From an uncultured Methanobrevibacter sp. (GTDB lineage Archaea > Methanobacteriota > Methanobacteria > Methanobacteriales > Methanobacteriaceae): a DNA stretch of 63,877 nt. Positions within the stretch are counted from its first letter, which is position 1. Each line of letters opens with the position of its first letter. The notes beneath the pieces are model-generated. The model saw nothing but the letters and a program-made list of their open reading frames with translations, did not search any database and was not told where the DNA came from. The stretch spans positions 1 to 63,877 of the forward strand of contig NZ_CACWVY010000006.1 in NCBI RefSeq assembly GCF_902764455.1, in the 5' to 3' direction. The position numbers and the translations under genes were made by a program. Shown in pieces: positions 2,540-40,394 of the stretch.

Positions 2540-2577
2540 AAAAATTTAAATAATTCTAAAATTAAAATAACAATTAT

Positions 2578-3270: not shown

Positions 3271-3291
3271 TCACCAAAAATTCACTATTTT

Positions 3292-4065
3292 TTAAAATTC
3301 AAGTTCCAAAGTTACAGGACAGTGATCGGAACCATATATTTCAGATAATATTTCTGCTGATTTTACATTATCCTTAATTTCTTCATTAACATAGAAATAA
3401 TCCAATCTCCAACCAGCATTCCTTTCACGTGCGCGAGTTCTGTAACTCCACCATGTAAAGTTGTTTTCACCCTCATCAAACATTCTAAAAGTATCAATGA
3501 AGCCGGCCTTTTCAAGTTCATCAAGCCAGGCACGCTCTTCAGGAAGATAACCGGATTTTCCTTCACAGTTTTTAGGGTTGTAAACATCAATCGGATTGTG
3601 GGCAATGTTATAATCTCCAGTAATAACCAGGTTTTTGCCCTGACTTTTAAGCTCAACGAGTTCATCCAGCAATGCATTACAGAAAGCGATCTTGAAATCA
3701 AGACGCTTAGCTTCCATACCACTGTTTGGGAAGTAAATGTTGTATAAAATGAAGTTAGGATACTCAATTTTTAATACTCTTCCTTCTTTGTCAAGCTCTT
3801 CAACACCAAGCCCGCATGTTACATTAACAGGCTCAATTTTGGAGTATGTTCCAACTCCACTGTAACCTTTCTTTTCAGCTTCATTGAAGTGCTGGTGGAA
3901 TCCATCAACATCTGCTAATTTCTTAGGAATCTTATCCTGAGTTGCTCTTACCTCTTGAAAATTAATAATATCAGCATCAGTTTGACTAAACCAGTCCCAA
4001 AATTCATCTTTTTTGGAAACTGCTCTAATTCCATTGACATTCCAAGAAACTAGCTTTATTGACAT
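3292..4065 (-). CDS. xth: Exodeoxyribonuclease III / AP endonuclease
   Basis: 257 residues, full length for the ExoIII family and the same length as Methanothermobacter Mth212. Metal and catalytic motifs: SWNVNGIRA at the N terminus, NFQEVRATQDKIP, GDYNIAHNPID, RLDYFYVN and the C-terminal SDHCPVTLEL. The family cleaves 5' of abasic sites; Mth212 also acts at uracil in DNA, so uracil repair is a reasonable but untested role. Its ATG shares one base with the pheS stop codon, so translation is coupled. Confidence 0.93.
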   Translation of the reverse strand: MSIKLVSWNVNGIRAVSKKDEFWDWFSQTDADIINFQEVRATQDKIPKKLADVDGFHQHFNEAEKKGYSGVGTYSKIEPVNVTCGLGVEELDKEGRVLKIEYPNFILYNIYFPNSGMEAKRLDFKIAFCNALLDELVELKSQGKNLVITGDYNIAHNPIDVYNPKNCEGKSGYLPEERAWLDELEKAGFIDTFRMFDEGENNFTWWSYRTRARERNAGWRLDYFYVNEEIKDNVKSAEILSEIYGSDHCPVTLELEF

Positions 4066-5606
4066 TATAATTCAACACCTTGTGAAATAGGCAATTCTCT
4101 AAGCCATTTAATGTCACTTTTATAAAGCATACGAATGTCTTCCACATCATATCTGATCATGGCAAGCCTTTCAATACCCAAACCGAAAGCTAGTGCAGGC
4201 TGGTTAATACCCAATGGTTTTAATACTTCAGGTCTAAACATTCCGGCACCACCAAGTTCAATCCAACTTTCCTTTTCTTCAAGATAAATTTCAGTTTCAG
4301 TAGATAAATAAGTATAAGGGAAGTAAGCAGGTCTGAATCTGACTTCAAAACCTAATTTTTTATAAAACTCTTTTAAAGTACCTAAAAGATTTTGATAACT
4401 GATTTTTTCATCACAAACCAATCCTTCCACTTGGTGGAATTCAGGCAAGTGCTTGTAGTCGAAAGTCTCTCTTCTAAATACTCTTCCAACAGAAAACATT
4501 TTAATTGGAGGTTCATGTTCAAATAAGTGTTTTGTAGATATTCCAGTAGTGTGAGTTCTTAAAACACTTTGACGAGCAATATCTTCACTCCAATCATATT
4601 GCCATCCAACTGAACCGGTATCCGCACCGTTTTCGTGAGTTTCAGCAGTAAGTTTTACCAAATCCATATCTGGTAAGTCACAGGTTAATGGATTTTTAAG
4701 ATAGAATGTGTCCTGCATTTCACGGGCTGCATGGTCCTGTGGCTGGAAAAGAGAATCAAAGTTCCAAAATGCAGATTCAACATACTCCCCATTGTCTTCT
4801 GAAAAACCCATATTTAAAAAGATTTCTCTAATTTCATCAATGATTACTCTTAACGGGTGTTTTTTACCTGAAAAGATAACAGGAGCTTCTGCATTAATAT
4901 CATATGGACGATATTCCAAACTTTTCCATTCTCCATCTTTTAGATGTTCATGAGTTAATTGAGTAGCTTGTTCTTTAATTGTAAATCCTATTTTAAGGAT
5001 TTCTTCACCTTTAGGTAAGATTTTAAATGAATGTGAGGTTTCTTTTTTAATGTTTAAAATGTTTTTCCTACCGGTTAGCTTTAAAAATCCATCTCTTAAA
5101 TCATCTGTGAAGAGTTTTACACCTTCGGCATTAACTTTAAGATATTCCAATACCCTTTCATCAACATCAGGTTTGTGTGAAAATTCTTTACCCATATCTG
5201 TAATGTTGATTTTACCTTTATCAATTTGAGCCCAGTTTTTTTGACGTAACCATCCAAGAGCAATTCCTGTTTCTTTTTTATCAATGCCTGCTTCATTAGC
5301 CAAGTCTTTCATTGGAATCTCATTTTTTTTAGCTAAAACTTCCAATATTTTACGTTCCGGAAGTCCGTGTTCTGCATATTCACGGCCGTCATCAGTTAAG
5401 GAATATGTTTCCTGAACCTTTTTATCAACTTCAATTATATCCTTTGAAGCAAGAGAACCTGCAGCACTCATAACTGATTTAATGTTCATGCCTGTATTTT
5501 CTGCAATTTGCTCAGGATTTGCATTGGGATTAGCTTCCAGTTCTTTTAAAAGTTTCTTCTCATAAATATGTAATTCACTAATGGTTTTTTCAATATCCTC
5601 ACTCAT
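4065..5606 (-). CDS. pheS: Phenylalanyl-tRNA synthetase alpha subunit
   Basis: 513 residues, the usual archaeal length. The N-terminal region has winged-helix repeats ([39 protein letters not shown]) for tRNA contact. The catalytic class II core has motif 2 around [16 protein letters not shown] and motif 3 in [15 protein letters not shown]. It charges tRNA-Phe together with PheT, which is not in the window. It is the first gene of a pheS-xth unit with a one-base overlap. A clear ATG lies at 5604-5606. Confidence 0.96.
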
Positions 5607-5673
5607 TTAAACACCATAATTTAAAGATTAATAATATATTAAAATATGTTTAAAGACATTAATAAAATTAATG

Positions 5674-6708
5674 TTAATCATCAATTACAAAAACCTCATC
5701 AAAAACAGATAATGAATCAGGGTCAAGTTTTACAGCCTTTTTAAAGCATATTTCCGATTCATCATCCATTCCCAATTCACTCAACGCTATAGATTTATAC
5801 ATCCATGATAAGGCGAAATCTTCATAAATTTCCAAAGACTTGTCCAAATATTGAATTGATTTTTTAAATTCACCTTTATTAATCAGATGCTTTGCCATTT
5901 CAACAAGATATGTGAAATCATTACTGTCCAGTTTACATGCTATTTGAAAGTATTCGTCAGCCAATTTAAACTGACCCAGTTCAGAGTATATGCTGGCTTT
6001 GTTGATAACTGAACTGATATTTAAAGGATCTAATTTAAGAGCCTCATCATAACAATTTAAAGCCTTGACAAATTCCCCTTCCCTATAATATACTGTTCCC
6101 TTATTAGACCACGAATCAACATTAGGCTCCAATTCAATGGCTCTGTCAAATGCTTTGATTGCCTTTGAGGGATAGTTCTGTTCAAGCAGAAATGCTCCCT
6201 TGTTATTCCAATATGAAGAATTATCGGGATCAATTTTTATAGCCTTATTGATTAGCTTTATTGCCTTTTTATACTTATGGAGAAATCCGAAGGATATTGC
6301 CTTAAAATTTAATGCCTCACTTTGGTCAGGTTTAATTTTTAAAGACAAATCCAGATACTTAATGGCATTTTGAAAATCGTTGAAAATATAAATCATGTTC
6401 AAAGCAAAGAGAAAAAAATCTTCAGAATTATCCAGATTTCCAAATGCAGGACTGTAATTAGAATTACCAAATTCCATTGTTAAAGCCTGCTGAAAAATTT
6501 CAAAAGATTTTTCTTCATCATCGAAATAAACTGCCAGGGATTTTCTATATAATGCTTTTGAATAATCTTTATGACCTTTAGGAATTGTTTCTAAAAGTTT
6601 TATTGCTTCATCTATTTTGGACTGACCAATTAGTTCATTATAGTCCTCAAATAAGTTTTTATAATCACTGGATTCAATATCTATTAATTGCCCTAACTTT
6701 TCGTTCAT
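5674..6708 (-). CDS. Tetratricopeptide repeat protein
   Basis: About 344 residues made mostly of TPR units (for example NFKAISFGFLHKYKKAIKLI, NNKGAFLLEQNYPSKAIKAF, SNKGTVYYREGEFVKALNCY, INKASIYSELGQFKLADEYF). These give a superhelical protein-interaction scaffold. No signal peptide or enzyme domain is seen. I start at the ATG at 6706-6708 because GGTGGT ends six bases before it; a longer frame reaches 6786 without support. TPR proteins of this kind are abundant in Methanobrevibacter and the partner cannot be inferred. Confidence 0.85.
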   Translation of the reverse strand: MNEKLGQLIDIESSDYKNLFEDYNELIGQSKIDEAIKLLETIPKGHKDYSKALYRKSLAVYFDDEEKSFEIFQQALTMEFGNSNYSPAFGNLDNSEDFFLFALNMIYIFNDFQNAIKYLDLSLKIKPDQSEALNFKAISFGFLHKYKKAIKLINKAIKIDPDNSSYWNNKGAFLLEQNYPSKAIKAFDRAIELEPNVDSWSNKGTVYYREGEFVKALNCYDEALKLDPLNISSVINKASIYSELGQFKLADEYFQIACKLDSNDFTYLVEMAKHLINKGEFKKSIQYLDKSLEIYEDFALSWMYKSIALSELGMDDESEICFKKAVKLDPDSLSVFDEVFVIDD

Positions 6709-6820
6709 GTTCATACCACCTAATAATTCGTGTATGAACATATCATCTGAAAAAGTAATAAAATTAAGGCAAGTGCGAAAAATCACAAAAACACAAAGGC
6801 ACTAAAAAGAAAAAGAAGAG

Positions 6821-7699
6821 TTATTCGAAGTTTGATTTCAAATAACTTACAAAAATAGAAGCTGCAGTTAAATCAGCTGTTGTTCCAGGATTATATTTAT
6901 TTTTAAATAAATAATCATCGAATTCCTGAAGTCTTTCATGAAAATCAGGAGAATCCTTCATTTTAAGCAGATCCCTTGTCATCAGGGAAACCTTCAAAGC
7001 TTCATCATTATCATATTTTCTTGAAATTAAAGTATCCGGAACATGAGATAAAATAGTTAAAAATGTTAAAATACAGGATTCATTTTGAGATTTCTCCTGA
7101 ATAAGTTTATGATATGTAGGATATCCCAATTCAAAAACTGCAGGCATATCTGAGGTCATCTCACGGGCAAGCATGTCCCATGGTGCAGATATCTTCAAAA
7201 CATCATACATTGTCTGATTATTATCCCTCAGCTCCTGTTTTGCATTTTCGCTGGCCACATCATATTCATCCTGGTCACCCATTCCCCCGGCGTCTGCAAT
7301 GTTGATTGCATCGTACAAATCGCATGCATCGTCAACAGAGGTATTTGCCATGACCAATTTAACATTTTCCCTGATATCATCAAATGAATCACTGACGGCA
7401 GCTGCAACTGCAATAGGAGTTATCATCATGACAATTCCCAAGTTAGTGTTATTTTGAATCCATTTGTCGGTTTCAGCTACTGCCTGCAGGATGTATTTAC
7501 CAAGTTTCGGATTTTCAACATCAACGTCGCTACATGCTTCACGGATTGTATCTCCAATGACGATTCCACTTATTATAAAATCTTCAAAAACCATGTCATC
7601 ATAATCACGAGTTCTGTGAACATTTCCCGGCTTTGGATATCCGCTTACTTCAAGTGCTGATGCAATTTGTGCCAGTTTTGCTATTTCTGACGGATTCAT
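6821..7699 (-). CDS. CitG-like triphosphoribosyl-dephospho-CoA synthase family protein
   Basis: 292 residues of the CitG/MdcB family: N-terminal ASALEVSGYPKPGNVHRTRDYDD, a central VMANTSVDDACDLYDAI and a C-terminal KYNPGTTADLTAASIF. Bacterial CitG makes the prosthetic-group precursor of citrate lyase. Methanogens lack that enzyme, so the archaeal branch probably acts on another nucleotide or cofactor, which is unknown. The start overlaps the hemB stop by one base, so the two are co-translated; HemB feeds heme, siroheme and F430 synthesis. Confidence 0.8.
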   Translation of the reverse strand: MNPSEIAKLAQIASALEVSGYPKPGNVHRTRDYDDMVFEDFIISGIVIGDTIREACSDVDVENPKLGKYILQAVAETDKWIQNNTNLGIVMMITPIAVAAAVSDSFDDIRENVKLVMANTSVDDACDLYDAINIADAGGMGDQDEYDVASENAKQELRDNNQTMYDVLKISAPWDMLAREMTSDMPAVFELGYPTYHKLIQEKSQNESCILTFLTILSHVPDTLISRKYDNDEALKVSLMTRDLLKMKDSPDFHERLQEFDDYLFKNKYNPGTTADLTAASIFVSYLKSNFE

Positions 7700-8700
7700 T
7701 ATATCATCTCATTTAATAGTAAATATGGTGCGAAATTAGTGATAATCAAGTCTGCTCCAGCTCTTTTAATTGAAAGAAGTGATTCTAAAATTGCGCGTTC
7801 AGTTAAAAATCCCTTTTCGATAGCAGCCATGAGCATTGCATATTCCCCGCTTACATTATACGCCACCAAAGGCAACATAAATTCATCACGAACCATTCTT
7901 ACAACATCCAAGTAAGGAAGTGCAGGTTTAACCATTAAAAAATCACATCCTTCAATAACGTCCAGTTCACATTCACGGATTGCTTCAACCGCATTGGCAG
8001 GATCCATCTGATAGGATTTTCTATCTCCTGCATGAGGGGATGAACAGGCCGCAACCCTGAACGGTTCATAAAATGCAGAGGCATATTTTGCTGAATAAGA
8101 CATTATCATTACATTGGTGTAACCGTTTTCATCCAGACATTGTCGAATTGCACCAACTCTTCCGTCCATCATGTCTGAAGGTGCAACAATATCGGCACCG
8201 GCTTCAGCATGAGAAAGGGCAACTTTTGCAATGTATGGGAGTGATTCATCATTCAATATTTCAATTCCATCATCAGTATCATCATTATCCACTATCATTC
8301 CGCAATGTCCGTGTGAAGTATATTGGCACAAACACACGTCTGTAATTACAACAAGATTTGTTTCCTTTTTAAGTTTTCTTACAGCTTTTTGAACAATACC
8401 TGTTGCTGAGTAATCCGGAGTTGCAATCTCATCTTTAGTATCCTCAGCAGGTATTCCAAATACAATGATTGATTTCAATCCTTTTTCTTCAAGCTGTTTT
8501 GCAAACTCAACACCTGCATTTAAGGAGAATCGAAATTCCCCCGGAAGTGATGAAATTTCTTCCTTTTCCATGTCATTAAGTTCTTCTTTAAAATAAATCG
8601 GATAAATCAAATCCTCTTTTTCAAGTTTGGTTTCACGAACTATATCTCTAATTTTAGCATTTTTTCTTAATCTTCTCATTCTTGTTGTCGGGAACTGCAT
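7699..8700 (-). CDS. hemB: Porphobilinogen synthase (delta-aminolevulinate dehydratase)
   Basis: 333 residues. It condenses two 5-aminolevulinate molecules to porphobilinogen, the entry to coenzyme F430, siroheme and cobamide synthesis. The zinc cysteines are in [14 protein letters not shown], so this is the Zn-dependent type. The Schiff-base lysines are in [15 protein letters not shown] and [13 protein letters not shown] use the ATG at 8698-8700 behind AGTGAT; a GTG three codons earlier is less likely. It is followed with a one-base overlap by the CitG-like gene. Confidence 0.95.
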
Positions 8701-8861
8701 AATTATCACTTGGTTAATAATTTTGATTTGAAATTATATAAAAATTTAGTAACTGAAGATATCTAAATTAAATTGAAACAAGTTTTCAGTCAATGCAAAA
8801 ATTCAAACATTTAATAACATTAATTAACAAACATTACACCAATTACTTAAAGAGGCTTAAC

Positions 8862-9962
8862 ATGTCAAATTCAATCGGAGAAAAATTCAGAATAACAAGT
8901 TTCGGTGCAAGTCATGGTGTTGGTGTAGGTGCTATTGTTGACGGATGTCCTGCAAATCTTGAATTAAGTGCAGAAGACATTCAAAAAGAACTGAATAAAA
9001 GAAAACCTGGAACAAGTAGTGTTACAACACCTAGAAAAGAATCCGATGAAATACAAATATTATCCGGAATATTTGAAGGTAAAACTGATGGAACACCAAT
9101 CACAGGAGTTATCTTTAATAAAAATCAGCATTCTAAAGATTATTCCATGTTTAAAAACACTCCACGCCCATCCCATGGAGATTACGGATGGATGATGAAA
9201 TACGGTAATTATGACTATAACGGAGGAGGAAGAGGAAGCGGTAGAGTTACCATAGGACATGTAATTGGGGGAGCAATAGCTAAAAAACTTTTAAAAACTC
9301 AAAATATTGAAATTATATCCCACGTTACCCAAATAGGAAATGTTAAAGCCGAATCTCAGGATTTTGAAACCATCAAAGAAAATATTGAAAAAAATCCAAT
9401 TAGATGTGCAGACCCTAAAGCTGCCAAAAAAATGGAAGAATTAATTCTATCTAAAAAACAGGAAGGTGATTCAGTTGGAGGAATTGTTGAGACAATTGCC
9501 GTTGGAGTGCCTCAAGGTCTTGGAGAACCTGTTTTTGAGAGACTTGATGGAGACCTTGCAAGAATATTGATGAATATCGGTGCGGTTAAGGGAGTTGAAA
9601 TTGGACTTGGATTTGATGTTGCCAACCATACTGCATCAGAAATTAATGACGAATACCAAATTGATAACGGCAAAGTCACCACAAAAACAAATAATTCCGG
9701 AGGAATTATTGGTGGAATGAGCAACGGAATGCCAATCGTTTCAAGAATTGCTGTAAAACCAACCCCCTCCATTTCAAAATGTCAGAATTCTGTCAATTTA
9801 GAAAAACAGGAAAACGAAAAAATAGAAATTAAAGGAAGGCATGATCCATGCATCTGTCCAAGAGTGACAGTAGTGGCTGAATCAAGCACTGCAATTGTCC
9901 TTGCAGACCACATGATTCGCTCAGGATTCATCCATCCTACCAATTTAGAAAAACAACATTAA
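8862..9962 (+). CDS. aroC: Chorismate synthase
   Basis: 366 residues. It converts EPSP to chorismate using reduced flavin, the last step of the shikimate pathway. Signatures: [20 protein letters not shown] at the N terminus, the [14 protein letters not shown] loop, [20 protein letters not shown] and the C-terminal [10 protein letters not shown]. The frame is open 23 codons further upstream, but AGAGG precedes the ATG at 8862 at normal spacing and the alignment-like start [10 protein letters not shown] is typical. Its stop overlaps the end of the convergent gene by four bases. Confidence 0.96.
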
Positions 9963-27290: not shown

Positions 27291-28310
27291 TTATAATAAT
27301 TCTTTTCTTAAATCAATTGTGTCTTTTAAATCAGGCCCTGTAGAAATAATAGTTACAGGAACACCTGTTTCAGTTTGAATATCTTCAATGAAAGCTTTGG
27401 TTTCAGCTGACAACTCATCATAGTTTTGTACACGAGCACAATCAAACAATCTGTCAACACAAGTTAAAGCAATTTGTGTTGCACCATTGATTCTGCATGA
27501 TTCTTTTGCCAGTTCCATGTCAAAGTAACCGATTCTTCTACGTCTTCCGGTTACAACACCATATTCTTCAAGCCCTTTGCTTTCAGCTTCTTCCTGAGTC
27601 ATTTCAGTTGGGAAAGGACCTTCACCAACACGTGAAATATAAGCTTTAAATACGTTAATAACTTCATCAACCTTAGTTGGTCCAACACCAACATCTGCAG
27701 CAAATGTTGATGCAGTAGTATCTTTACTGGTTACATACGGATATGAACCGTAATAAAGAGAAAGAGCAAAACCTTGAGAACCTTCAATGAATACGTCATC
27801 ACCGTTATCAATAGATTCATTTACTTCAAGTGACACATCAGTAATGTATTCTTCAAGTTCAGGCACATCCTTTGCCAAACCAATTGTTCTTAATACACGG
27901 TCTGAATTTGCAGGACCGCATCCTGAACCAGTACTGCCTATTTTTTTAGACAAGTGTTCAGATTTTTTATCTCTAGACATGTGATCTTCGGTAATTATAG
28001 CACATCTAGGATCAACACACATTCTTTCTTTAACATTATATTTTTTTAAGTTTTCAAATTCTGAAAATAGTACATCAGGATTTACTAAAACTCCCGCACC
28101 AATCATGAGTTTAGCATCAGTATGTACAAAACCTGATGGGGTTAATCTTAAACCGTATTTTTCTCCATTGAATTCAACAGAGTGGCCCGCATTTGGTCCT
28201 ACACCTGCACGAGCAATTATTTGTGGTTTATCTGCATCACAAAGGTAAGTAATACATTTTCCTTTACCTTCATCTCCCCATGCTCCACCAACTAAAATAC
28301 TACAAGTCAT
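27291..28310 (-). CDS. purA: Adenylosuccinate synthetase
   Basis: 339 residues, the short archaeal form (bacterial PurA is about 430). It makes adenylosuccinate from IMP, Asp and GTP. Motifs: [16 protein letters not shown] (P-loop), [47 protein letters not shown] and [16 protein letters not shown] precedes the ATG. It is monocistronic; T-rich sequence at 27262-27275 on the minus strand probably ends it. It is divergent from the histidine kinase operon. Confidence 0.95.
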
Positions 28311-28485: not shown

Positions 28486-30393
28486 ATGCATGTTGAAAGA
28501 CAGTACAAGGAACTAGAAAAAATCGAAGAGGTTCGGGTTTATAATCTTAACCGAGACGATACATATCAAAAGGCTCCTCAAGTGAAAAAACCCAAAAATG
28601 TTCGTTTAAGTAATGTTATGAAACACGTGCCCTCCGATATAAATGTATTCCAACCAATTGACAACGGTGAAGATTTTCTAATTGAAAGAATTGGTTGGAA
28701 TTTACTGGAAAGAAATAACACCACTTTAGAAGAAGTTGAAGGCCGAAAATTAAGCCAAATCTCTCCATTTTACTATGACCTTTTAAAAGACACATTTAAA
28801 GAGGTTTTAGAAACTGGAAAAATGAAATCTATGAGAATATTTTATTATATTAGTGACAGAATTAGAACCCTCGCAAATATAAATATTATTTCTGATGAAG
28901 GCGAAATTTATGTAATTTCTGATTTAAGAAATACATTTAATGAAGTTAAAACCGAAGAAGAACAAAAAGAAGAAGAAGAGGAACATAAAGCTAATCTAAT
29001 TGAATATTTTTCACAAACCGGAAGTTATTACAAAACAAGGAATGAATATGCATGGACTCCCGGCATTTATAATATTCTAAATCGTCCAAAGGAAGCTGGA
29101 GATGCATACCATAATATCATTTTTGATTTAGTAATACCTGAAGACCGTCCGTTAGTAGAAGAACTGATTCAAACAATGAGCCCCGAAACAGACACCTACG
29201 AAAACATAATTCGTATCCAAATTCCCGGAGGATCTATTAAATATCTAGATACATATCTTTATTCTAAATTTGATGAAAATGGCGAGGAAATTAGTAATTA
29301 CGGTTTGTTTAAAGATGTAAGTATTGATTCGCACAAACACATGACAAGACCAGTAGACTTTATGTTAAACGGATTTAATCACAATTCAAAGCTGTCACTT
29401 CTTGTTGAACCATTAAGTAAAAGATATGAATTCAGTGAAGGATTTTATAAAATTATCGAAGTTGAAAAAGAGAAATATGTCCACGGACTCGACATAATTG
29501 AAAATATTGTTGAAGAGAATATTAAGGAGGATTTTTATAAATTAGTTAAAGGTGAAATTGAAGAATTGAACTGTGTGCTAACTTATAAAGTGCATGGAGA
29601 CGATAGTGATTTAAAAATATGCGAATTATTTATTGAAAGGTTTGATTATGGAAATAAAAATCACAGTATTGGATTTTTAACAGACATTACATATGCACGC
29701 AAAAAACAAAAAGAACTGATAGAATCAAATGCAACAAAAAACATTTTGATTAAAGAAGTTCACCACAGAGTAAAAAACAACCTGCAGGTATTGAGTAGTT
29801 TCTTAAATCTTGAGAGAAGAGCATATAAAAATAACTCTGAAAACATTTTAGACAATATGCAAGCACGTTTAACATCACTTGCTCTACTTCACGAAAAAAC
29901 ATACAACACCGATGATTTTATCAACATTAATCTTGAAGATTATATGAAAGACCAAGATTCTACATTACATTCATTATTCGGAACAAAAGACATCAATTTT
30001 GTATCTGAAGTTAACCCGGATATTCATTTATCCATGGATGTAATTACACCATTACTATTAATTGTTGATGAACTTACAATGAACGCAATAAAACACGCAT
30101 TCCCTGATCCAGATATGCCTGATAAGACAATATTTAAAAAAATCGACTATATTGATGATGACAAACATGTATGTGAATTTATACTTAGAGATAATGGAGT
30201 TGGACTTGAAAGCCCTGAATCCTTAATTAATCATAACTTAGGATGGGAAATAATAAACAATTTAACAAGACAAATCAATGGAAAACTAGAAATTTTAGAC
30301 TGCGAAGTTGGAACAGGATTTAAAATCATTTTCCCTGTAAACTTCGACCACACGCTTGAATATCACCTTAATGACACGGAGGTGAGCAAATGA
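28486..30393 (+). CDS. Sensor histidine kinase 1 (HisKA_2 type)
   Basis: 635 residues, no membrane segment, so cytosolic sensing. The N-terminal part (about residues 1-410) contains PAS-like regions including SQTGSYYKTRNEYAWTPGIY. Then the dimerisation/phosphoacceptor box KEVHHRVKNNLQVLSSFLNL with phospho-acceptor His426, and a HATPase domain (DELTMNAIKHAFP as N box, LRDNGVGLESP as G1, EVGTGFKIIFP). This is the HisKA_2 family common in Methanobacteriales. AGGTAAT precedes the ATG. It overlaps the next kinase by four bases (ATGA) and starts an operon with two receivers and a glycosyltransferase. Confidence 0.9.
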   Translation: MHVERQYKELEKIEEVRVYNLNRDDTYQKAPQVKKPKNVRLSNVMKHVPSDINVFQPIDNGEDFLIERIGWNLLERNNTTLEEVEGRKLSQISPFYYDLLKDTFKEVLETGKMKSMRIFYYISDRIRTLANINIISDEGEIYVISDLRNTFNEVKTEEEQKEEEEEHKANLIEYFSQTGSYYKTRNEYAWTPGIYNILNRPKEAGDAYHNIIFDLVIPEDRPLVEELIQTMSPETDTYENIIRIQIPGGSIKYLDTYLYSKFDENGEEISNYGLFKDVSIDSHKHMTRPVDFMLNGFNHNSKLSLLVEPLSKRYEFSEGFYKIIEVEKEKYVHGLDIIENIVEENIKEDFYKLVKGEIEELNCVLTYKVHGDDSDLKICELFIERFDYGNKNHSIGFLTDITYARKKQKELIESNATKNILIKEVHHRVKNNLQVLSSFLNLERRAYKNNSENILDNMQARLTSLALLHEKTYNTDDFININLEDYMKDQDSTLHSLFGTKDINFVSEVNPDIHLSMDVITPLLLIVDELTMNAIKHAFPDPDMPDKTIFKKIDYIDDDKHVCEFILRDNGVGLESPESLINHNLGWEIINNLTRQINGKLEILDCEVGTGFKIIFPVNFDHTLEYHLNDTEVSK

Positions 30394-32258
30394 GAATAGA
30401 AAAAACATACAGACAATTAGAAAGTATAGAAGAGGTCCATATCTATGATATTACTGAAAGCGATTTATTTAGATCTGTTCCACAAGAATTTGAGATACCT
30501 CCTATGCCTTTCGAAAAAACATTAAATGCAATTTCAAATGATTTAGATATGTTTCTTGCATATGATGAGGGTAAAGACTTCATTATCGGTAGATTAGGAT
30601 TAGGTGCTTTAACAAGAGGAGATATTACACAAAAAGACGTTATAGGACGTTTACTTAGTAAAACATCCCCAGGTTATTTTAAAGTTTTGTCAGAACCTTT
30701 AAGAGAAGTTTATCAAACCCATGAAACTAAAAAAATGATGTTTTATTATCATTTTAATGAAAAACTAGCAAGATTTTCAAATGTTAAAATCATTTATGAC
30801 ATGGGCAAACTTATTTTAATTTCAGATCACAGAGACAATCAGGAAACTCAATTATATACACCTGATGATACTAATGATGAAAAAGCTAATCTGATTGAGT
30901 ATTTCTCACAAACCGGAAGTTACTATAAAATTAAAGACCGATACACCTGGACTCAAGGTATTTATAATATCATAAATCGTACAAGAGAAGAAAATGACGA
31001 ATATTATAATATTGTCTTTGATTTGATTATCCCTGAAGATAAACCAGTACTCGAAAAAATGCTTAGGGAGTTAGATGCTGGAAAAACAACATACGAATCG
31101 ATTATCCGAATTAGAACGCACGATGATATTTTAAAATATGTTGAAGTAAATCTTTATTCCACATTCGATAAAGAGGGACAACTATTAAACAGATATGGTC
31201 TAATGAAAGATGTCAGTACAGATACTGACAGAAAAATGAAAAGACCTGTTGATTTTTTACTTAAAGGATTTAAAAGCAGCAAAAAATTAGCATTATTAAT
31301 TGATCCATTGAATGTGAAACATTATGAATTCTCTGAAGGTTTCTACCATCTGATTGAAATACCTCCTGAAGAGTATAGGCACAAACGTGAGATTGTTGAT
31401 TATATTGTTGAAGAAAACGTGAAGTCTCAACTGATAGAACTTATGGAAGGAAAAATTGATGAACTCCAAGTTTCATTCACATACAATGTGCATGGTGATG
31501 AAAACAACCAAAAAATGTGTGAATTATATCTTGAAAGGTTTGAATTTGGAGAAAGCACTCACAGTATTGGATTTTTAACTGATGTTACTGAAGAAAAAGA
31601 AAAACAAAATGAACTCGTTGAAGCTAACGAACATCAAAAAGTATTAATTAAAGAAGTCCACCATAGAGTGAAAAACAACCTGCAAGTTCTGAACAGTTTC
31701 TTAAACTTAGAAAAAAGAGCCTATAAAGATAAACCACATGTAATTATTGACCATATGCAATCAAGACTATCTTCATTAGCTATTCTTCATGAAAAAACAT
31801 ATAACACTACAGATTTCAAAAATATTAATCTGAAAGATTATATTGTTGATCAGGATAGTCAAATGAGTAGTTTAATTGGTTTAAGAGATGGAATTGAATT
31901 TAAGTCAGATGTTGATGATGACATTAACTTAACAATTGAGGTCATAACTCCTCTTTTACTGGTTATCGATGAACTAACTATGAATGCGATAAAACACGCA
32001 TTCCCGGATAAAAGTGTTTCAAATAAAGTTATCTATAAGAAAATTAGTAAAATCAATAATGAAACTGGTGAACTAATTCTTAAAGATAATGGAATTGGTA
32101 TTGAAGATCCGTCTAAAATTTCTAAAAACCTTGGTTGTGAAATTATCAAAAATCTCACAAAACAACTTGATGGACACATTGAATTGTACCAGCATGAAAA
32201 CGGAACCGGATATAGGCTAACTTTCCCACTCGATATGGAACATACAATCGAAGGATAA
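30390..32258 (+). CDS. Sensor histidine kinase 2 (paralogue of kinase 1)
   Basis: 622 residues with the same domain order as the preceding kinase: N-terminal LESIEEVHIYDI like LEKIEEVRVYNL in kinase 1, a central SQTGSYYKIKDRYTWTQGIY PAS-like part, phosphoacceptor box KEVHHRVKNNLQVLNSF with His424, and ATP-binding DELTMNAIKHAFP and LKDNGIGIEDP. It arose by tandem duplication. The sensor halves differ more than the kinase cores, which suggests separate inputs or heterodimers. GGAGGTGA gives a strong ribosome binding site; the start is inside the previous stop (ATGA). Confidence 0.9.
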   Translation: MRIEKTYRQLESIEEVHIYDITESDLFRSVPQEFEIPPMPFEKTLNAISNDLDMFLAYDEGKDFIIGRLGLGALTRGDITQKDVIGRLLSKTSPGYFKVLSEPLREVYQTHETKKMMFYYHFNEKLARFSNVKIIYDMGKLILISDHRDNQETQLYTPDDTNDEKANLIEYFSQTGSYYKIKDRYTWTQGIYNIINRTREENDEYYNIVFDLIIPEDKPVLEKMLRELDAGKTTYESIIRIRTHDDILKYVEVNLYSTFDKEGQLLNRYGLMKDVSTDTDRKMKRPVDFLLKGFKSSKKLALLIDPLNVKHYEFSEGFYHLIEIPPEEYRHKREIVDYIVEENVKSQLIELMEGKIDELQVSFTYNVHGDENNQKMCELYLERFEFGESTHSIGFLTDVTEEKEKQNELVEANEHQKVLIKEVHHRVKNNLQVLNSFLNLEKRAYKDKPHVIIDHMQSRLSSLAILHEKTYNTTDFKNINLKDYIVDQDSQMSSLIGLRDGIEFKSDVDDDINLTIEVITPLLLVIDELTMNAIKHAFPDKSVSNKVIYKKISKINNETGELILKDNGIGIEDPSKISKNLGCEIIKNLTKQLDGHIELYQHENGTGYRLTFPLDMEHTIEG

Positions 32259-32337
32259 AATTTAAATAAATAAAATGAAGTATTAAGATTTAAATAAAAT
32301 GAACAATAAAATTTTAACATTATAATGGGGTAATAAA

Positions 32338-32748
32338 ATGAATGAAAGAATATTAATTGTAGAAGATGAAGCAATTACTGCACTTGATTTGAAATATAGT
32401 TTAGAAGAATTAGGTTATGAAATTGTCGATACAGTTGATACCGGACAAGATGCTATTGATACTGCTGCAGAAACCGTACCTGATGTGGTATTAATGGATA
32501 TTAAATTAAAAGGAGACATGGAAGGTATAGAAGCAGCAGAAGTTATTTCAGAATTAAGAATACCAATCATATACCTAACAGCAAACACCGATACAGACAC
32601 ATTTGAAAAATCAAATGTTAAAGGATCCTACGGATTTGTTTCAAAACCATACGATATTCAAAAATTAGACAAAACTCTTAAAATTACCATTAATAGAGCA
32701 AAACTAGAAGAAAAGAAAATAAATCAAGCTAGTGGTTTTACAGAATAA
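32338..32748 (+). CDS. Single-domain response regulator (CheY-like)
   Basis: 136 residues: one receiver domain with a short tail. Acidic pair Glu9-Asp10 (ILIVEDEAI), phospho-acceptor Asp54 (VVLMDIKLKG), Thr81 (IIYLTANT) and Lys103 (GFVSKPYD) are all present, so it should be phosphorylated. There is no output domain, so it signals by protein contact, perhaps to the receiver-glycosyltransferase ten bases downstream. GGGG precedes the ATG. The 79-base gap behind kinase 2 contains GATTTAAATA and could hold an extra promoter. Confidence 0.93.
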   Translation: MNERILIVEDEAITALDLKYSLEELGYEIVDTVDTGQDAIDTAAETVPDVVLMDIKLKGDMEGIEAAEVISELRIPIIYLTANTDTDTFEKSNVKGSYGFVSKPYDIQKLDKTLKITINRAKLEEKKINQASGFTE

Positions 32749-32757
32749 TGGTGTGAT

Positions 32758-34527
32758 ATGACTGAATTTGAATTAATTGAAGGAAAACCAAAAATATTCG
32801 CAATTAGTCAGGATAAAGACTTATTATCACAAATCCAAAAATATGTTGATAACTACGATTATGATTTTGTAGGCTCAGCATCTGAAAAAGCAGATATATT
32901 TAGAGAAGTGGAAGAGTTATCTGTTAATCTGATATTTTTAGATTCTGAAATTGAAAACATTGACTTAATTGAACTGACAGATGATTTAGAAATTTTCAAT
33001 ATTCCTATCATAATCATAATTGGAGATTTGTTTAATGAAACCATTGATACATTATTAATGAGTAATCCTTTTGGTTATCTGATTAAACCGATTGATGAAG
33101 AGGAACTTCAAAGAGCAATGGCGGTAGCTCTCAGAAAACATGAACAAAACGTTCAAAACATACTAGAAGCACAATCAAAACTTCAGGAAAAAAGTAATGA
33201 ACTTTTAATCGAAAAATCTGATTCAAGTTTTCTTTTAATTCTTTGTCTATCCCTAATCATTATCGCTGTTTTATCAAGAAATGCTACTTGGCTTCAATGG
33301 GTTCTCTTAATACCAACATTAGCTATGCTTATAAACTCAATCGTGAGTTTGAAAAAACAGAAAAAACCAGAGCCTCTTGACGAAAAAGATTTTCCATTTG
33401 TAAGTATTTTTATTCCAGCTCACAATGAAGAAAACACTATTGAAGATACAGTGAGAAGCGTATGTCAGGTTGATTATCATAAGGAACCTGAAGAAGAAGA
33501 TGAAAAAAGGGAACCTCAATATGAATTAATTGTTGTAAATGACGGTTCAACTGATAGAACTGGAGAAATTTTATCAAAGCTAAAAGAGGAATATCCTCAA
33601 GTAAAAATTGTTACAAGACACCCTCCACGATCAGGAAAAGGAAAAGGATTTGTTTTAAATGATGCATTAACATTATCAAGAGGAGAAATAATTGGAGTAT
33701 TTGATGCAGATACACAAATCAAAACGGATTATTTAAAAACAGTCATACCTTATCTTAATGGAGACATTGATGGTGTACAAACAAGAGTTAAAATGTTTAA
33801 TAAAAATGAGAATTTTTTAGCTCGTATGCAACATGTGGAATTTACCACATTCGGAAATACTTTAATTGCTAAAGATAATTTAGACCATACCGGATTTTTA
33901 GGTGGAAATGGTCAATTTGTTAAAAAACAAGCCATTATCGAATCTGGAAGATGGGACGGATTTGCTGTAACTGAAGATTTAAATTTAGCTATAAAAATTA
34001 TTCTAAATGGTGGAAAAATTAGTTATTGTGGAGATTGCGCAGTATATCAAGAAGCCGTAACAGACTGGAAAGCATTCTTTAGACAAAGAACTAGATGGGC
34101 TATTGGAAACTTTGAAACACTATTTGTTTATCTTCCTTTAATCGTAAGATCAAAAATATCCCTTCTAAAAAAATTTAATGTTCTCGAACATATTTCATTT
34201 TATAGTTTTAATTTATTGATCTTCTTTGGATTCATTATTACTATTATTAATGCTATTTCATGGTTCTTTTTCCATAATGTAACCTTAATTAAAATGGAAG
34301 CTCCCCTAATTGTAGGTATATTATCTGCAGTTGCATTTTTCCCAGGACTTATATTTTCTCTTATGAGGGATAAATTGGGAGTAATCGAAATGATTAAAGA
34401 TATGGTAAAATATTATATTTATTGTTTCCACCTAATTCCATTGTTTTTCTTAACTATGCATACCATGATGAGTAGAAAAGAAAGAAAATGGTCAAAAACT
34501 GTTCATAAAGGAGGAAAAGAAACATGA
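32758..34527 (+). CDS. Receiver domain fused to membrane GT2 glycosyltransferase
   Basis: 589 residues. Residues about 10-130 form a receiver-like domain: Asp62 (IFLDSEIE) and the lysine in GYLIKPID are kept, but the usual acidic pair is replaced (FAISQDKD), so phosphorylation is doubtful. Two membrane helices follow (about 156-200). The GT2 catalytic domain has VSIFIPAHNEENTIEDT, NDGSTDRTGE, FDADTQIKTD, AVTEDLNLA and the processive-synthase motif RQRTRW. Three C-terminal helices end the chain. This is the architecture of PgaC/cellulose-synthase-like enzymes with an added regulatory domain. GGTGTGAT precedes the ATG. Confidence 0.88.
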   Translation: MTEFELIEGKPKIFAISQDKDLLSQIQKYVDNYDYDFVGSASEKADIFREVEELSVNLIFLDSEIENIDLIELTDDLEIFNIPIIIIIGDLFNETIDTLLMSNPFGYLIKPIDEEELQRAMAVALRKHEQNVQNILEAQSKLQEKSNELLIEKSDSSFLLILCLSLIIIAVLSRNATWLQWVLLIPTLAMLINSIVSLKKQKKPEPLDEKDFPFVSIFIPAHNEENTIEDTVRSVCQVDYHKEPEEEDEKREPQYELIVVNDGSTDRTGEILSKLKEEYPQVKIVTRHPPRSGKGKGFVLNDALTLSRGEIIGVFDADTQIKTDYLKTVIPYLNGDIDGVQTRVKMFNKNENFLARMQHVEFTTFGNTLIAKDNLDHTGFLGGNGQFVKKQAIIESGRWDGFAVTEDLNLAIKIILNGGKISYCGDCAVYQEAVTDWKAFFRQRTRWAIGNFETLFVYLPLIVRSKISLLKKFNVLEHISFYSFNLLIFFGFIITIINAISWFFFHNVTLIKMEAPLIVGILSAVAFFPGLIFSLMRDKLGVIEMIKDMVKYYIYCFHLIPLFFLTMHTMMSRKERKWSKTVHKGGKET

Positions 34528-35147
34528 GAAAACAAGATGTTCTACGTTCAATAATAATTATTATTTTAATCATATTTATTGCAGTTAATATCAATGGAAT
34601 TAATAGTTTTTTAAGTTTCAAAACTGATAAAACCGTGGAATTTGGTCACAGTATAACTGTTGTACCGCAAGCCTGGAATACAACAGATGAAGTAAATTTA
34701 ACAAACCAATCCAAAACTCATGATGCTATAACTAATAAGTATGTCTTCATAGACCATTGGGACGACTGGCCAGAAGACCATATAACGTCCATATCGGAGG
34801 CCAAATTTAAATCAATGGAAAATGGAAGTTATAAAGTTCTTAAAAATGAAAACAGTACTTTATCTGGAGTACCAGTTTCAAAACAATACTTTACAAATCC
34901 TTCAAGAAATAATGATCATGTTTGGAGTCCTATTGGAGTAAACTACGTATTTTCAAAAGAGGACACTAACTATGCAATACAAGTTCATTACTTCACAACT
35001 CAGGACTATAACAATACCACATTCATCAAAGAAATAGATAAGTGTATTGAAGATGACATGAGTAATATTCATAACCATGAATACAACGGATATGTATCTG
35101 GCGTTCGTGACATATTCAATTTCATAACCGGCCATATCCCACATTGA
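34524..35147 (+). CDS. Membrane-anchored extracellular hypothetical protein
   Basis: 207 residues. One N-terminal hydrophobic segment (SIIIIILIIFIAVNI) acts as a signal anchor; the rest is polar, rich in Asn, Thr and aromatics, and carries several NxS/T sequons (NTT, NLT, NQS, NST), as expected outside the cell. No family is recognised. It overlaps the glycosyltransferase by four bases with GGAGG upstream, so it is probably an accessory part of the polysaccharide machinery. Confidence 0.72.
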   Translation: MRKQDVLRSIIIIILIIFIAVNINGINSFLSFKTDKTVEFGHSITVVPQAWNTTDEVNLTNQSKTHDAITNKYVFIDHWDDWPEDHITSISEAKFKSMENGSYKVLKNENSTLSGVPVSKQYFTNPSRNNDHVWSPIGVNYVFSKEDTNYAIQVHYFTTQDYNNTTFIKEIDKCIEDDMSNIHNHEYNGYVSGVRDIFNFITGHIPH

Positions 35148-35180: not shown

Positions 35181-35233
35181 TTTAATAGATATTGAAAAGA
35201 AATTAAATAAAATATCTATTAAACTAATTTTTT
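35181..35233 (+). terminator. Hairpin terminator of the kinase-glycosyltransferase operon
   Basis: TTTAATAGATATT (35181-35193) and AATATCTATTAAA (35211-35223) are perfect 13-base arms with a 17-base loop, followed by TTTTTT at 35228-35233. Confidence 0.75.
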
Positions 35234-35261: not shown

Positions 35262-35855
35262 TTATTTTTTGGTATACATCAAAGGATGATTTTCATATAT
35301 TGGGTTTTTAATAATGTTTCTTTTCAAATGATATTTTAAAAATGAAAGCATCCATTGATTAGACAATTCCCTTAAGGAATCATCATCCAACCTTTCAAAT
35401 TTGGTGAAGAAATCCATTTGATTTCCTCCAACCACAATTGCAATCTCTTTTGTTTCAATAAGCATGAAAAAATCATTGCGGATATTGTGAATATCAAAGT
35501 CTTCAACAACAGAAATTGTTTTTTCTTTTTTATAATTATAGAAAAATGTATTAAGGTATTCGAAATCAATGAATTTGACTTCAACAACATCATACAATAC
35601 TTCTTCACTTAATAACTGATTTTTAAAATTATATTTTGCTAAAAAATCAATATCCCATATATTGTTATAAAAAACAGTGAAAAATGATTCAGATGCAAAA
35701 CGAACTATTAAAGGAAAATCTTCACTTTCTTTAGGAACACCAAGCTCAACATCTTTAAACTCAAGATATATGGAGTCCTGAGATATTTCTACAGAAGTTA
35801 ATATACCAGAGTTAGTCATTACCTCTCTAATTAATTTTAGTGAACGAACATTCAT
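35262..35855 (-). CDS. Hypothetical protein
   Basis: 197 residues, not recognised. Mixed alpha/beta, no signal peptide or membrane helix, many aromatic residues (FFTVFYNNIWDIDFLAKYNF). Segments such as LYDVVEVKFIDFEYLNTFFYN and EIAIVVGGNQMDFF look like a small structural domain. It is the last gene of the dapL-DUF6882-DUF6891 unit, and its start overlaps the previous stop (ATGA), so it probably works with the two preceding proteins. Confidence 0.65.
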   Translation of the reverse strand: MNVRSLKLIREVMTNSGILTSVEISQDSIYLEFKDVELGVPKESEDFPLIVRFASESFFTVFYNNIWDIDFLAKYNFKNQLLSEEVLYDVVEVKFIDFEYLNTFFYNYKKEKTISVVEDFDIHNIRNDFFMLIETKEIAIVVGGNQMDFFTKFERLDDDSLRELSNQWMLSFLKYHLKRNIIKNPIYENHPLMYTKK

Positions 35856-36448
35856 TTTAGCACCCCTTTTTTAACAAAGCAATTATAAGCTCCTTCTATT
35901 TCATATTCTTTATCACTGTCAAATGATTTATCCCATTTAAGTGGATTAATCTCAATCTGGTTGTTAATAGTTTCATCCCAAAGAATAGAAAATCCTTCGG
36001 ATTTTAAGTTTTCTGCAACAATTTCACCAATTTTTAATGCTTTCTTTTCATTATTTTCAAAATCACCAAATGTAATTTTTAATTTTTCATCCCAAATAGC
36101 TTCCTCTACATCCTCAAAAGTGTAAAAACAAAAACCAATTGGATTGAATTTATTATTCATAAGATGAACCTGAAGTTCAAAGGCATCAGCTACACCTTCT
36201 TCAATATCATAACCGCAGTTATGAACAGCAACAATATCCTCTTTCACTAATGAATCAAAAGCATTCTCAAGTTTTGTGAAATTGACATTATCAAAATCGT
36301 TTAAAGAAATATTGAATTGAGAAAAATCAATATCTTCCTCAATAAATTGATCTTCCAATATTTCCATGATTTCATCGACATTGAAAAATCCGGATCTAGT
36401 TAAAACTTCAATCATATATTCAACTTCTTCAACCAAATCCTGATTCAT
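35852..36448 (-). CDS. DUF6891-like hypothetical protein
   Basis: About 198 residues. The segment VAVHNCGYDIEEGVADAFE, then GFCFYTFEDVEEAI and LKITFGDFE resembles DUF6891 proteins known mostly from bacteria; assigned from memory. There is no catalytic signature. I use the ATG at 36446-36448 with AGGGAT upstream; an earlier pair of ATGs would overlap the previous gene. It is coupled to the next gene by a four-base overlap. Confidence 0.62.
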   Translation of the reverse strand: MNQDLVEEVEYMIEVLTRSGFFNVDEIMEILEDQFIEEDIDFSQFNISLNDFDNVNFTKLENAFDSLVKEDIVAVHNCGYDIEEGVADAFELQVHLMNNKFNPIGFCFYTFEDVEEAIWDEKLKITFGDFENNEKKALKIGEIVAENLKSEGFSILWDETINNQIEINPLKWDKSFDSDKEYEIEGAYNCFVKKGVLK

Positions 36449-36455
36449 AATATCC

Positions 36456-37157
36456 CTATTCTTCTTCATCATACATTAATATACGAGTTACGTTGCCTCT
36501 TTCAGTGAATCCGACAATTATTCTACTATCTCTAATTTTAGCAACTGCAAAATCATCATGTGGCTTAAAACCATATCCTTTAAGCTTAGTATAGGATTCA
36601 AATGCAATTTTTGGATAAATTTTAAAATTCTTTTGGAAAGTATAAAATGTATTTCTAAACTTCTCTAAAGAATTATTTTCTTTAATCAAATCTGATTCCA
36701 ATGCAACGTAAATATCCAATCCCTCTTCGGAAACCGCATAATATGCATCCATATTTAAAATAGCTACTGTTGACATTGATAATGTGTGGCAATCATTAAC
36801 ATCTGCATTGATAACAGGGGTTTTAAATTCAGGAATATCAAATTCATCACCAATAGCTTTCATTTGGATAGCTGATTTGATTAAATCCTTACCGAAGATA
36901 TCTTCATTATCCCATGCCCATGACCATTGTTTCAACTCTTCATCATGAAATCCAATGATTTGGACAGGCATTGTAATATTTTCAAAAGTGATTGTCCCAT
37001 TTTCAATGTCTAAATCACCAACAGAATCACCAATTAATTCTGACAGATTTTCTTGTTTGTCCAGTGCTAATGCACCATATTTAGATAAAACTACTTTAAA
37101 AGAGTCACCATCTTCAATTTGCACAGGTTTTTCAAATTTTGCTTTCAAATTAAACAC
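36456..37157 (-). CDS. DUF6882-like hypothetical protein
   Basis: About 233 residues. FHDEELKQWSWAWDNEDIF and LSMSTVAILNMDAYY resemble the DUF6882 family, found mostly in bacteria and of unknown function. The frame begins right after the dapL stop with a GTG; a TTG at 37148 has AGGTG at six bases and may be the true start. It forms a unit with the DUF6891-like gene, an association that suggests a common role. Confidence 0.62.
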   Translation of the reverse strand: MFNLKAKFEKPVQIEDGDSFKVVLSKYGALALDKQENLSELIGDSVGDLDIENGTITFENITMPVQIIGFHDEELKQWSWAWDNEDIFGKDLIKSAIQMKAIGDEFDIPEFKTPVINADVNDCHTLSMSTVAILNMDAYYAVSEEGLDIYVALESDLIKENNSLEKFRNTFYTFQKNFKIYPKIAFESYTKLKGYGFKPHDDFAVAKIRDSRIIVGFTERGNVTRILMYDEEE

Positions 37158-38717: not shown

Positions 38718-40394
38718 ATGAACGGAATTACAATAATACTTTGGATAATAATTTTTGTAGTAGGTGCGGTTGCAATAGTATTTGTTAAATCGCATTTTAA
38801 AGAGGATAAACTTGAAAATAGTGAAAAATCAATGATTTCCAAAGAGCGGATTACTAATTTTATATCAAATCGCAATAATATCGAACCTAAAACATCCCTT
38901 CATAAAGATAGTTCCCATCATAATCAAAATCGTTTTATTAGTCAGACAGAATCATATGCTCAAGAGGACTATAGTATTTCTTATGCACCCGAAGTTGAAA
39001 ACAACAACAATAAAAATACAGAATATGAATCTCAAAATCAAATACTTATAAATTATGAAAATGAAGTTAAAAAAACTCAAGAACCAATGAACGATTACCA
39101 GGTTGAAATTATGACTCAAGATAATGAAAAACATGAATTAAAAGATTTATTTACTATTGATGAATTAATCAAAGAATCTAAAAGGAAAGATAGTGAAAGA
39201 GAAAAAGAAGCTCAACAGGTTAAAGGTGAAGATGACAAAGAATTAACTGAACTTAAAGAAAGTATCAAAAAACAAAAAGAAGCTAAAGAAGTTGATGATA
39301 AACTTATTGATGAAATTTTAGCTGATGAAGAAATCGGAAAAATCTTAGAAAGCGATTCTGTTGAGGAAACTGCTGAAGAAACTCCAGCAGAAGAAACCAT
39401 AGCAGACATAATAAACACAGAAAAACCACCTGCAGAAGAAACCATAGCAGACATAATAAACACAGAAAAACCACCTGCAGAAGAAACCATAGCAGACATA
39501 ATAAACACAGAAGAAACATCAGAAGAAAGTGTTCAAGATGTTTTAGATGTTGAAACCCCTGAAGAAAGTACTAAAGAAGTTAGTGCAGACATAAAAGAAG
39601 AAACAGAAACACCTGAAATTGAAAATCAATCTGTTGCAACACAAAAAGACATTGAGGAAGCTATAAACACTGCATCCCAAGAAATCGAAGAAAAAGAAAT
39701 TGAAAGTATTTCAGAAAGAGAGAACATTACTGATGCATTATTAAACTCAGAAGAGGAAATTAAAGAACCTGCTTTAAAATCCCCAACTAAAATCAGTGAA
39801 ACTGAAAGTGTTGAAACACCAATAGACGACTCTTATTTATCTTCTGATGAACCTGCAAATGAACTAGATTACAGAAATGATTTAAACAAAATTAAAAATA
39901 CAATTAGAGGTTCTAAATTATTCCAAGACGTTAAAGAAAAATTAAGACCTGAAACTCCAGAATATGAGCCTATTAATGATTTAGAAGAAACATACATAAG
40001 AAATGTCAATGAATATGAAGATGAATATGCTCCAATCATTAATGAAACTCATGATGAATTTGGAGAATATTATGAACCGGATTATGATGAAGCAATAAGA
40101 CAAGAAAATACTCGAAAGTTATTTGAAACAACTACCATTACTCCTGAAAAACCTAAAATTGAAAAAACAGAACCAAAAGCTAATGTTATTAAATCTAAAC
40201 CATCAAGAGACAATATTAAAATTCAAATGGGTAATACTGAAGTTGTACTTAAAAAAGGAGATGAAATCATATTTAAACATGACGGAGAAACTTATTCAAG
40301 TCAAGTTTATGCAATCAACGGTGATGAAATCTCTGTAAGGTACAGACGTAAAGACATTAAAATCAAACCAGAAGATGTGAAAAAGGTATATTAA
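38718..40394 (+). CDS. Membrane-anchored acidic repeat protein
   Basis: 558 residues. One N-terminal membrane helix (TIILWIIIFVVGAVAIVFV) is followed by a long, Glu/Lys/Thr-rich and probably disordered region that includes three near-identical 15-residue repeats (core EETIADIINTEKPPA). A compact basic C-terminal domain of about 55 residues follows (IKIQMGNTEVVLKKGDEIIF to the end), which looks like a small beta barrel. The tail faces the cytosol if the positive-inside rule holds (KSHFKEDK after the helix). The function is unknown; a membrane tether holding a small binding domain is a reasonable picture. Weak GGG before the ATG. Confidence 0.75.
   Translation: MNGITIILWIIIFVVGAVAIVFVKSHFKEDKLENSEKSMISKERITNFISNRNNIEPKTSLHKDSSHHNQNRFISQTESYAQEDYSISYAPEVENNNNKNTEYESQNQILINYENEVKKTQEPMNDYQVEIMTQDNEKHELKDLFTIDELIKESKRKDSEREKEAQQVKGEDDKELTELKESIKKQKEAKEVDDKLIDEILADEEIGKILESDSVEETAEETPAEETIADIINTEKPPAEETIADIINTEKPPAEETIADIINTEETSEESVQDVLDVETPEESTKEVSADIKEETETPEIENQSVATQKDIEEAINTASQEIEEKEIESISERENITDALLNSEEEIKEPALKSPTKISETESVETPIDDSYLSSDEPANELDYRNDLNKIKNTIRGSKLFQDVKEKLRPETPEYEPINDLEETYIRNVNEYEDEYAPIINETHDEFGEYYEPDYDEAIRQENTRKLFETTTITPEKPKIEKTEPKANVIKSKPSRDNIKIQMGNTEVVLKKGDEIIFKHDGETYSSQVYAINGDEISVRYRRKDIKIKPEDVKKVY
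39387..39511 (+). repeat. Three in-frame 45-bp tandem repeats
   Basis: Units begin at 39387, 39432 and 39477. The first two are complete and identical, and the third is the same for about 35 bases before diverging. Each starts GCAGAAGAAACCATAGCAGA and encodes 15 residues. The lack of silent changes points to recent expansion. Confidence 0.9.

Follow-up and report, generated by a model that had tools for sequence, protein, structure and literature searches.

The window analyzed here is a stretch of 63,877 nucleotides from contig C6 of a gut methanogen (Methanobrevibacter) whose genome measures 2.75 Mb and is 98% complete. It carries a cassette of five co-directed genes on the plus strand, in which two histidine kinases (HK1 and HK2) and a stand-alone receiver (REC) precede a receiver-bearing glycosyltransferase (REC-GT) and a protein with an extracytoplasmic domain (EXP). 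From sequence comparison, we consider it reasonably probable that the cassette encodes a split, PleD-like switch, in which a receiver and a pseudo-receiver would govern a membrane-embedded processive glycosyltransferase. We also lean, by a little, toward a broader proposal: that the whole two-component repertoire of this genome (four HisKA_2 kinases, one intact receiver, and one pseudo-receiver) would control this one synthase post-translationally, and that the switch would have arisen by fission of a REC-REC-enzyme, the free REC now acting in trans on the decayed second receiver.

Gene Organization of the Cassette

The initial annotation had read the locus as a series of kinase, kinase, receiver, receiver-glycosyltransferase, and exported protein, which the coordinates and Pfam matches bear out (Table 1). 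The cassette is flanked by the adenylosuccinate synthetase gene (27291-28310, minus strand) and, on the other side, by a gene at 35262-35855 (minus strand). Gene order and near-identical spacing are repeated in 16-17 congeners, and the closest public relatives of the locus are Methanobrevibacter MAGs, many of them ruminant-derived.

Table 1. Features of the cassette, in window coordinates.
Feature	Coordinates	Strand	Description or basis
HK1	28486..30393	+	Soluble HisKA_2 histidine kinase, PAS-like N-terminus, no TM
HK2	30390..32258	+	Soluble HisKA_2 kinase, tandem paralogue of HK1
HK2/REC gap, 79 bp, TATA-like element tttAAATAAAATga	32259..32337	+	Position kept in 17 congeners
REC, stand-alone receiver	32338..32748	+	Response_reg, five catalytic residues
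REC-GT, pseudo-receiver + processive GT2 (likely) + TM helices	32758..34527	+	Response_reg, Glyco_tranf_2_3, motifs, model
EXP, N-terminal TM helix + PsbP/DcrB-like extracytoplasmic domain	34524..35147	+	Fold comparison
A-U hairpin, 13-bp stem, between convergent genes, possible terminator	35181..35223	+	

The junctions had been described as four-base overlaps or short gaps. Indeed, 4-bp ATGA-type overlaps occur, at just two junctions (HK1/HK2 and GT/EXP), and REC and REC-GT are 9 bp apart; HK2 and REC, however, are separated by 79 bp, a spacing that ranges from 44 to 95 bp among relatives. An alignment of 17 congeners places a TATA-like element, AAATAAAAT, at a fixed distance of about 45-50 bp upstream of the REC start codon. 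Together, the wide gap and the conserved TATA-like box point to a likely second promoter, so that REC, REC-GT, and EXP would form a unit separate from the kinases and the cassette would comprise two transcription units. As for the strong hairpin terminator proposed at the 3' end, the hairpin exists (17-nt loop, z = -2.9), but its stem is composed of A-U pairs only, it is kept in the nearest relatives only, and a scan for GC-type terminators returned no match there.

EXP, described at first as an exported protein, has one N-terminal transmembrane helix followed by an extracytoplasmic domain and is probably membrane-anchored. By sequence it has no PDB or Pfam match, and fold comparison alone was informative: the model (pLDDT 78) bears a weak yet consistent resemblance to the PsbP, DcrB, and LpqN folds (best E 1e-4, TM about 0.35-0.42). 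No EXP paralogue was found in the window genome, and orthologues were found only beside the synthase or, in G021, beside its remnant.

Downstream, the gene at 35262-35855 forms a conserved convergent cluster with DUF6891 and DUF6882 (35262-37157), present with or without the cassette, and a gene at 38718-40394 contains near-perfect tandem repeats encoding PPAEETIADIINTEK in several copies.

Receiver Domains and Synthase Core

REC is a protein of 136 aa consisting of a receiver domain alone (Response_reg, 2.1e-21), in which the five catalytic residues are all in place (E9, D10, D54, T81, and K103); the same five are kept by every stand-alone REC adjoining a synthase among all relatives aligned. 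Moreover, no other protein of the cassette is as conserved as REC (90% mean identity; dN/dS 0.054), whose best NCBIfam subfamily is PhyR (3.9e-22), under the curated cut-off.

A second receiver domain spans residues 12-125 of REC-GT (Response_reg, 9.3e-9 at residues 14-120), where the catalytic positions are S17, Q18, D62, I88, and K110. The acidic pair and the Thr are therefore missing, while the Asp and the Lys are kept. A domain recognized as a receiver but without at least one of the five catalytic residues is defined as a pseudo-receiver (Bourret et al., 2025), a definition under which this domain falls; a normal phospho-acceptor role is unlikely for it, and residual or unorthodox phosphorylation may occur, given D62 and K110. 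In every split form where the columns align, this receiver lacks an intact acidic pair and Thr. D62 and K110 are retained across most of the Methanobrevibacter clade, and in a Methanosphaera-like branch the Asp itself is replaced by Ser. The domain is still under purifying selection (dN/dS 0.115, and 0.087 for the glycosyltransferase). That it is structurally a receiver, on which the initial annotation had made its reading depend, is confirmed in the AlphaFold model (mean pLDDT 85.5), where it folds as (beta-alpha)5. Its alpha5 is predicted to continue as one 60-residue helix (114-173) into the first transmembrane helix (TM1).

A relay through both receivers does not fit these residues, and phosphate would be expected to stop at REC, because the receiver of REC-GT has neither acidic pair nor Thr. 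Direct phosphorylation of the fused receiver at D62 by the kinases, with REC as a phosphate sink or second output, would agree with the retention of D62 and K110 in most of the clade and with the two intact receivers of the fused ancestors described below; nevertheless, it is quite unlikely, as the metal-binding acidic pair and the Thr are gone throughout the split clade, Ser replaces the Asp in the Methanosphaera-like branch, and REC leads the set in conservation.

The remainder of REC-GT matches Glyco_tranf_2_3 (PF13641, 1.8e-25 at residues 215-449) and holds the motifs D262, D316xD318, T405E406D407, and Q443RxR446W447, invariant across all rows of the glycosyltransferase alignment. Transmembrane helices lie on both sides of this GT2 domain, TM1 and TM2 before it and a C-terminal bundle after it, and the best solved-structure matches of the core are BcsA and hyaluronan synthases. 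Since the catalytic motifs are kept and these are the closest structures, REC-GT is likely a processive membrane polysaccharide synthase with a putative polymer product. In one relative (G088, and apparently also G119; L057:5007-9197 and L078:2147-7638), an N-terminal extension of about 800 residues precedes the pseudo-receiver of the synthase; no confident Pfam domain was found in it, and it is possibly a coiled coil.

Histidine Kinases and Two-Component Repertoire

HK1 and HK2 gave HisKA_2 matches at E = 1.3e-17 and 9e-17, and both present a C-terminal HisKA_2-HATPase module whose H, N, and G boxes are intact. In HK1 the H-box (HHRVKNN) starts at residue 426 and the N-box is at 528; in HK2 the H-box starts at residue 424 and the N-box is at 527. 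Transmembrane helices were predicted in neither, denoting soluble kinases, which are 49.5% identical to each other. The window genome encodes two more, one on contig C9 and one on C18, and the four constitute one family (41-56% identity). The best NCBIfam subfamily match of the kinases is PhyK, under the curated cut-off. Beyond these, no other sensor-kinase ATPase was found in the window genome; two extra HATPase_c matches were rejected as sensor kinases, one looking like TopoVI-B (567-aa ORF) and the other like a chance match in an unrelated 576-aa ORF.

HK4, the kinase on C18 (L166:5784-7652), keeps the phospho-acceptor H-box, whereas its ATP-binding N and G boxes have degenerated (DELTMIAIRNAF and EEIGIG), which marks it as a pseudo-kinase, perhaps serving as a phosphatase or phosphate shuttle. 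It adjoins two divergent membrane SpoIIE-type phosphatases (L166, i.e., G000:C18:24000-38000, positions 1893-9452) and a MatE transporter that carries an anti-sigma-like HATPase_c_2 domain at its C-terminus, a neighborhood that is possibly an archaeal partner-switching system.

Exactly two receiver domains were detected in the window genome, both in the cassette; hidden receivers elsewhere were absent even at E<=10, and no transcriptional response regulator was found. Similarly, in about 25 of 30 synthase-positive congeners every receiver lies within the REC-GT loci, as counted from listed coordinates. As the only receivers of the genome both stand at the synthase, the whole repertoire would feed one enzyme. 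The direct, non-transcriptional control of the synthase that had been proposed is thus well supported at the level of sequence, more strongly than first claimed, by this receiver count and by kinases and synthase that come and go together.

In this context, we propose that HK1 and HK2, together with HK3 and perhaps HK4, encoded elsewhere, would sense cytoplasmic signals through their PAS-like domains and phosphorylate REC, the sole intact receiver, on D54. Phosphorylated REC would then bind the N-terminal pseudo-receiver of the synthase, and the signal would run along the predicted 60-residue helix from the pseudo-receiver to TM1, turning on or off the polymerization and export of a surface polysaccharide. 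EXP may assist outside the membrane, for instance in chain release or attachment, and no transcription factor would take part in the chain.

The pseudo-receiver could instead be just a docking or dimerization platform bringing REC and kinases to the membrane, or be constitutively "on", with control residing in the kinases or in expression driven by the second promoter. No switch is known for many active pseudo-receivers (PMC12632262), and a separate promoter is likely here; yet the genome has no transcriptional response regulator, and some REC-GT relatives carry two intact catalytic receivers, leaving this reading unlikely. Less probable still, and decidedly so, is that REC acts as a general hub, e.g., in partner switching around HK4 and its SpoIIE phosphatases, and stands beside the synthase incidentally. 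The phosphatases and the MatE-HATPase_c_2 protein adjoining HK4 would suit such a role, but in nearly all synthase-bearing relatives REC either immediately precedes the synthase or is joined to it, and congeners without synthase almost always lack receivers, as they lack HisKA_2 kinases.

Distribution Among Congeners

Most of the compared genomes are MAGs, and the absence counts come from Pfam-level searches. Because the synthase itself holds a receiver, the comparison of 45 receiver-positive with 39 synthase-positive genomes is partly circular, and the HisKA_2 table was therefore used: these kinases were present in 22 of 22 synthase-positive congeners versus 2 of 21 synthase-negative ones. 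The two exceptions are G103, where a contig end cuts the cassette, and G031, with relic kinases and no receiver. A contig end likewise cuts the cassette in G100, and in G104 it is spread over two contigs, with HK1 about 9 kb from adenylosuccinate synthetase (L188, L193, and L194 for these three genomes).

The flanking genes are direct neighbors in about 20 negatives, where the distance from one to the other is usually about 100-300 bp and all five cassette genes are missing from the interval. An assembly artefact was discarded as the cause of absence, since in the clean negatives a single contig holds both adenylosuccinate synthetase and the downstream gene. On a tree of five flanking genes, cassette presence requires 14 changes, at least 12 of them on starred branches, and the unlinked kinases followed the cassette in about eight of nine independent pairs that were informative (sign test, median p 0.039); after tree correction, kinase/cassette co-occurrence across these MAGs is only moderately significant (p about 0.04). 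Repeated horizontal gain of the cassette seems less likely than repeated loss, given that the sister pairs G000-G085, G108-G116, G109-G096, and G061-G082 recur, by eye, in both the glycosyltransferase and the flanking-gene trees. Furthermore, decay of the cassette is visible in progress, as only a 45-codon synthase remnant and EXP remain in G021, and both the synthase and HK1 are broken in G044.

Two genomes, G004 and G055, retain REC and REC-GT and have lost the adjacent kinases, G055 being also without EXP. A glycosyltransferase without kinases in related genomes had been named in advance as an outcome that would tell against the coupling, and taken literally it does occur; even so, the coupling is not refuted by it, since G004 and G055 encode five and about nine other HisKA_2 kinases, respectively. 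The same two genomes offer some room for a chance neighborhood, that is, unrelated kinases and synthase sharing one operon, but the five genes come and go en bloc at one site, in no fewer than 12 changes, accompanied by the unlinked kinases, a co-loss that renders mere chance highly improbable.

Fused and Split Forms

In relatives belonging to several other genera, as well as in a second paralogue within Methanobrevibacter, REC1, REC2, and the glycosyltransferase form one chain of about 720-800 aa (10 proteins), with both receiver sites intact in most. In G016 and G027 the chain is fused and the Asp of REC2 is lost, giving the order REC, pseudo-receiver, enzyme. On the other hand, the REC-GT of G013 has a single, intact receiver, and the pseudo-receiver design is not universal. 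In the tree of glycosyltransferase cores, the fused forms are basal and all separate-REC forms make up a single starred clade (29 rows); we read this, on both grounds, as one gene fission followed by decay of the second receiver. Stand-alone RECs group with the first receivers of the fused proteins in the REC tree, weakly supported, and their genes sit immediately ahead of the GT gene, which hints that REC is the orthologue of that first receiver.

Comparison With Known Systems

In PleD, a phosphorylated receiver signals to a neighboring pseudo-receiver and thereby switches an enzyme (PMC12632262). The order in Caulobacter PleD (receiver, pseudo-receiver, GGDEF) is matched in a single chain by G016 and G027. 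In the window, by contrast, the output is a membrane polysaccharide synthase (GT2) instead of GGDEF, and the phosphorylatable receiver is a separate protein; because receiver and enzyme are separate, the system is better said to work like PleD than to be a PleD. With BcsA, PgaC (IcaA), and hyaluronan synthases, REC-GT shares the processive membrane GT2 core, the D, DxD, TED, and QxxRW motifs, and transmembrane helices on both sides, but it bears an N-terminal receiver, and no PilZ domain, as in c-di-GMP-controlled BcsA, was found in it by Pfam search. The convergence of HisKA_2 kinases on one receiver resembles PhyK-PhyR of the alphaproteobacterial general stress response, although REC has no PhyR sigma-like domain and the output is an enzyme.

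The on/off switching of pseudo-receivers was termed "a mystery" in a 2025 review (PMC12632262). Among close relatives the synthase occurs in three forms: fused with both receivers live, fused with one of them dead, and split, where a free live receiver accompanies a dead one on the enzyme. Since these three coexist in one family, pseudo-receiver switching becomes directly testable, and the fission, if true, would be a natural experiment in it. The system would also offer a two-component network that is minimal and genome-complete, with one enzyme as its only output. It is likewise a candidate surface-polysaccharide switch of gut and rumen methanogens, for which natural presence/absence pairs exist, such as G134 and G126.

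The initial annotation held direct coupling to be notable in archaea, a claim that stands more weakly, since REC-BcsA and REC-REC-BcsA were already listed for Methanobacteriaceae in 2018 (13 proteins, among them MTH_548; Galperin et al., 2018, PMC5847659). These carry one or two N-terminal receivers on a cellulose-synthase-like PF13641 glycosyltransferase, and the window protein, an N-terminal receiver joined to a PF13641 GT2, is of this kind; the fusion itself is not new, having been catalogued there. The main text of that census describes the fusion, and makes no mention of the split REC, the receiver decay, the HisKA_2 partners, the PsbP-like protein, or the dedication of the repertoire; nor were the split, the decay, the whole-repertoire dedication, or the en-bloc loss found in the searchable literature. 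Titles and abstracts yielded no precedent for receiver-controlled glycosyltransferases, and the literature on MTH548 amounts to the 2018 census only.

Full-length matches to REC-GT are restricted to Methanobacteriaceae, the next matches reaching about 30% identity and covering the glycosyltransferase core only. One record titled "uncultured Bacillales bacterium" (L101, CAMOWA010000006.1) carries a locus near-identical to that of the Methanobacteriaceae genome G037, and its label is probably a naming or binning error.
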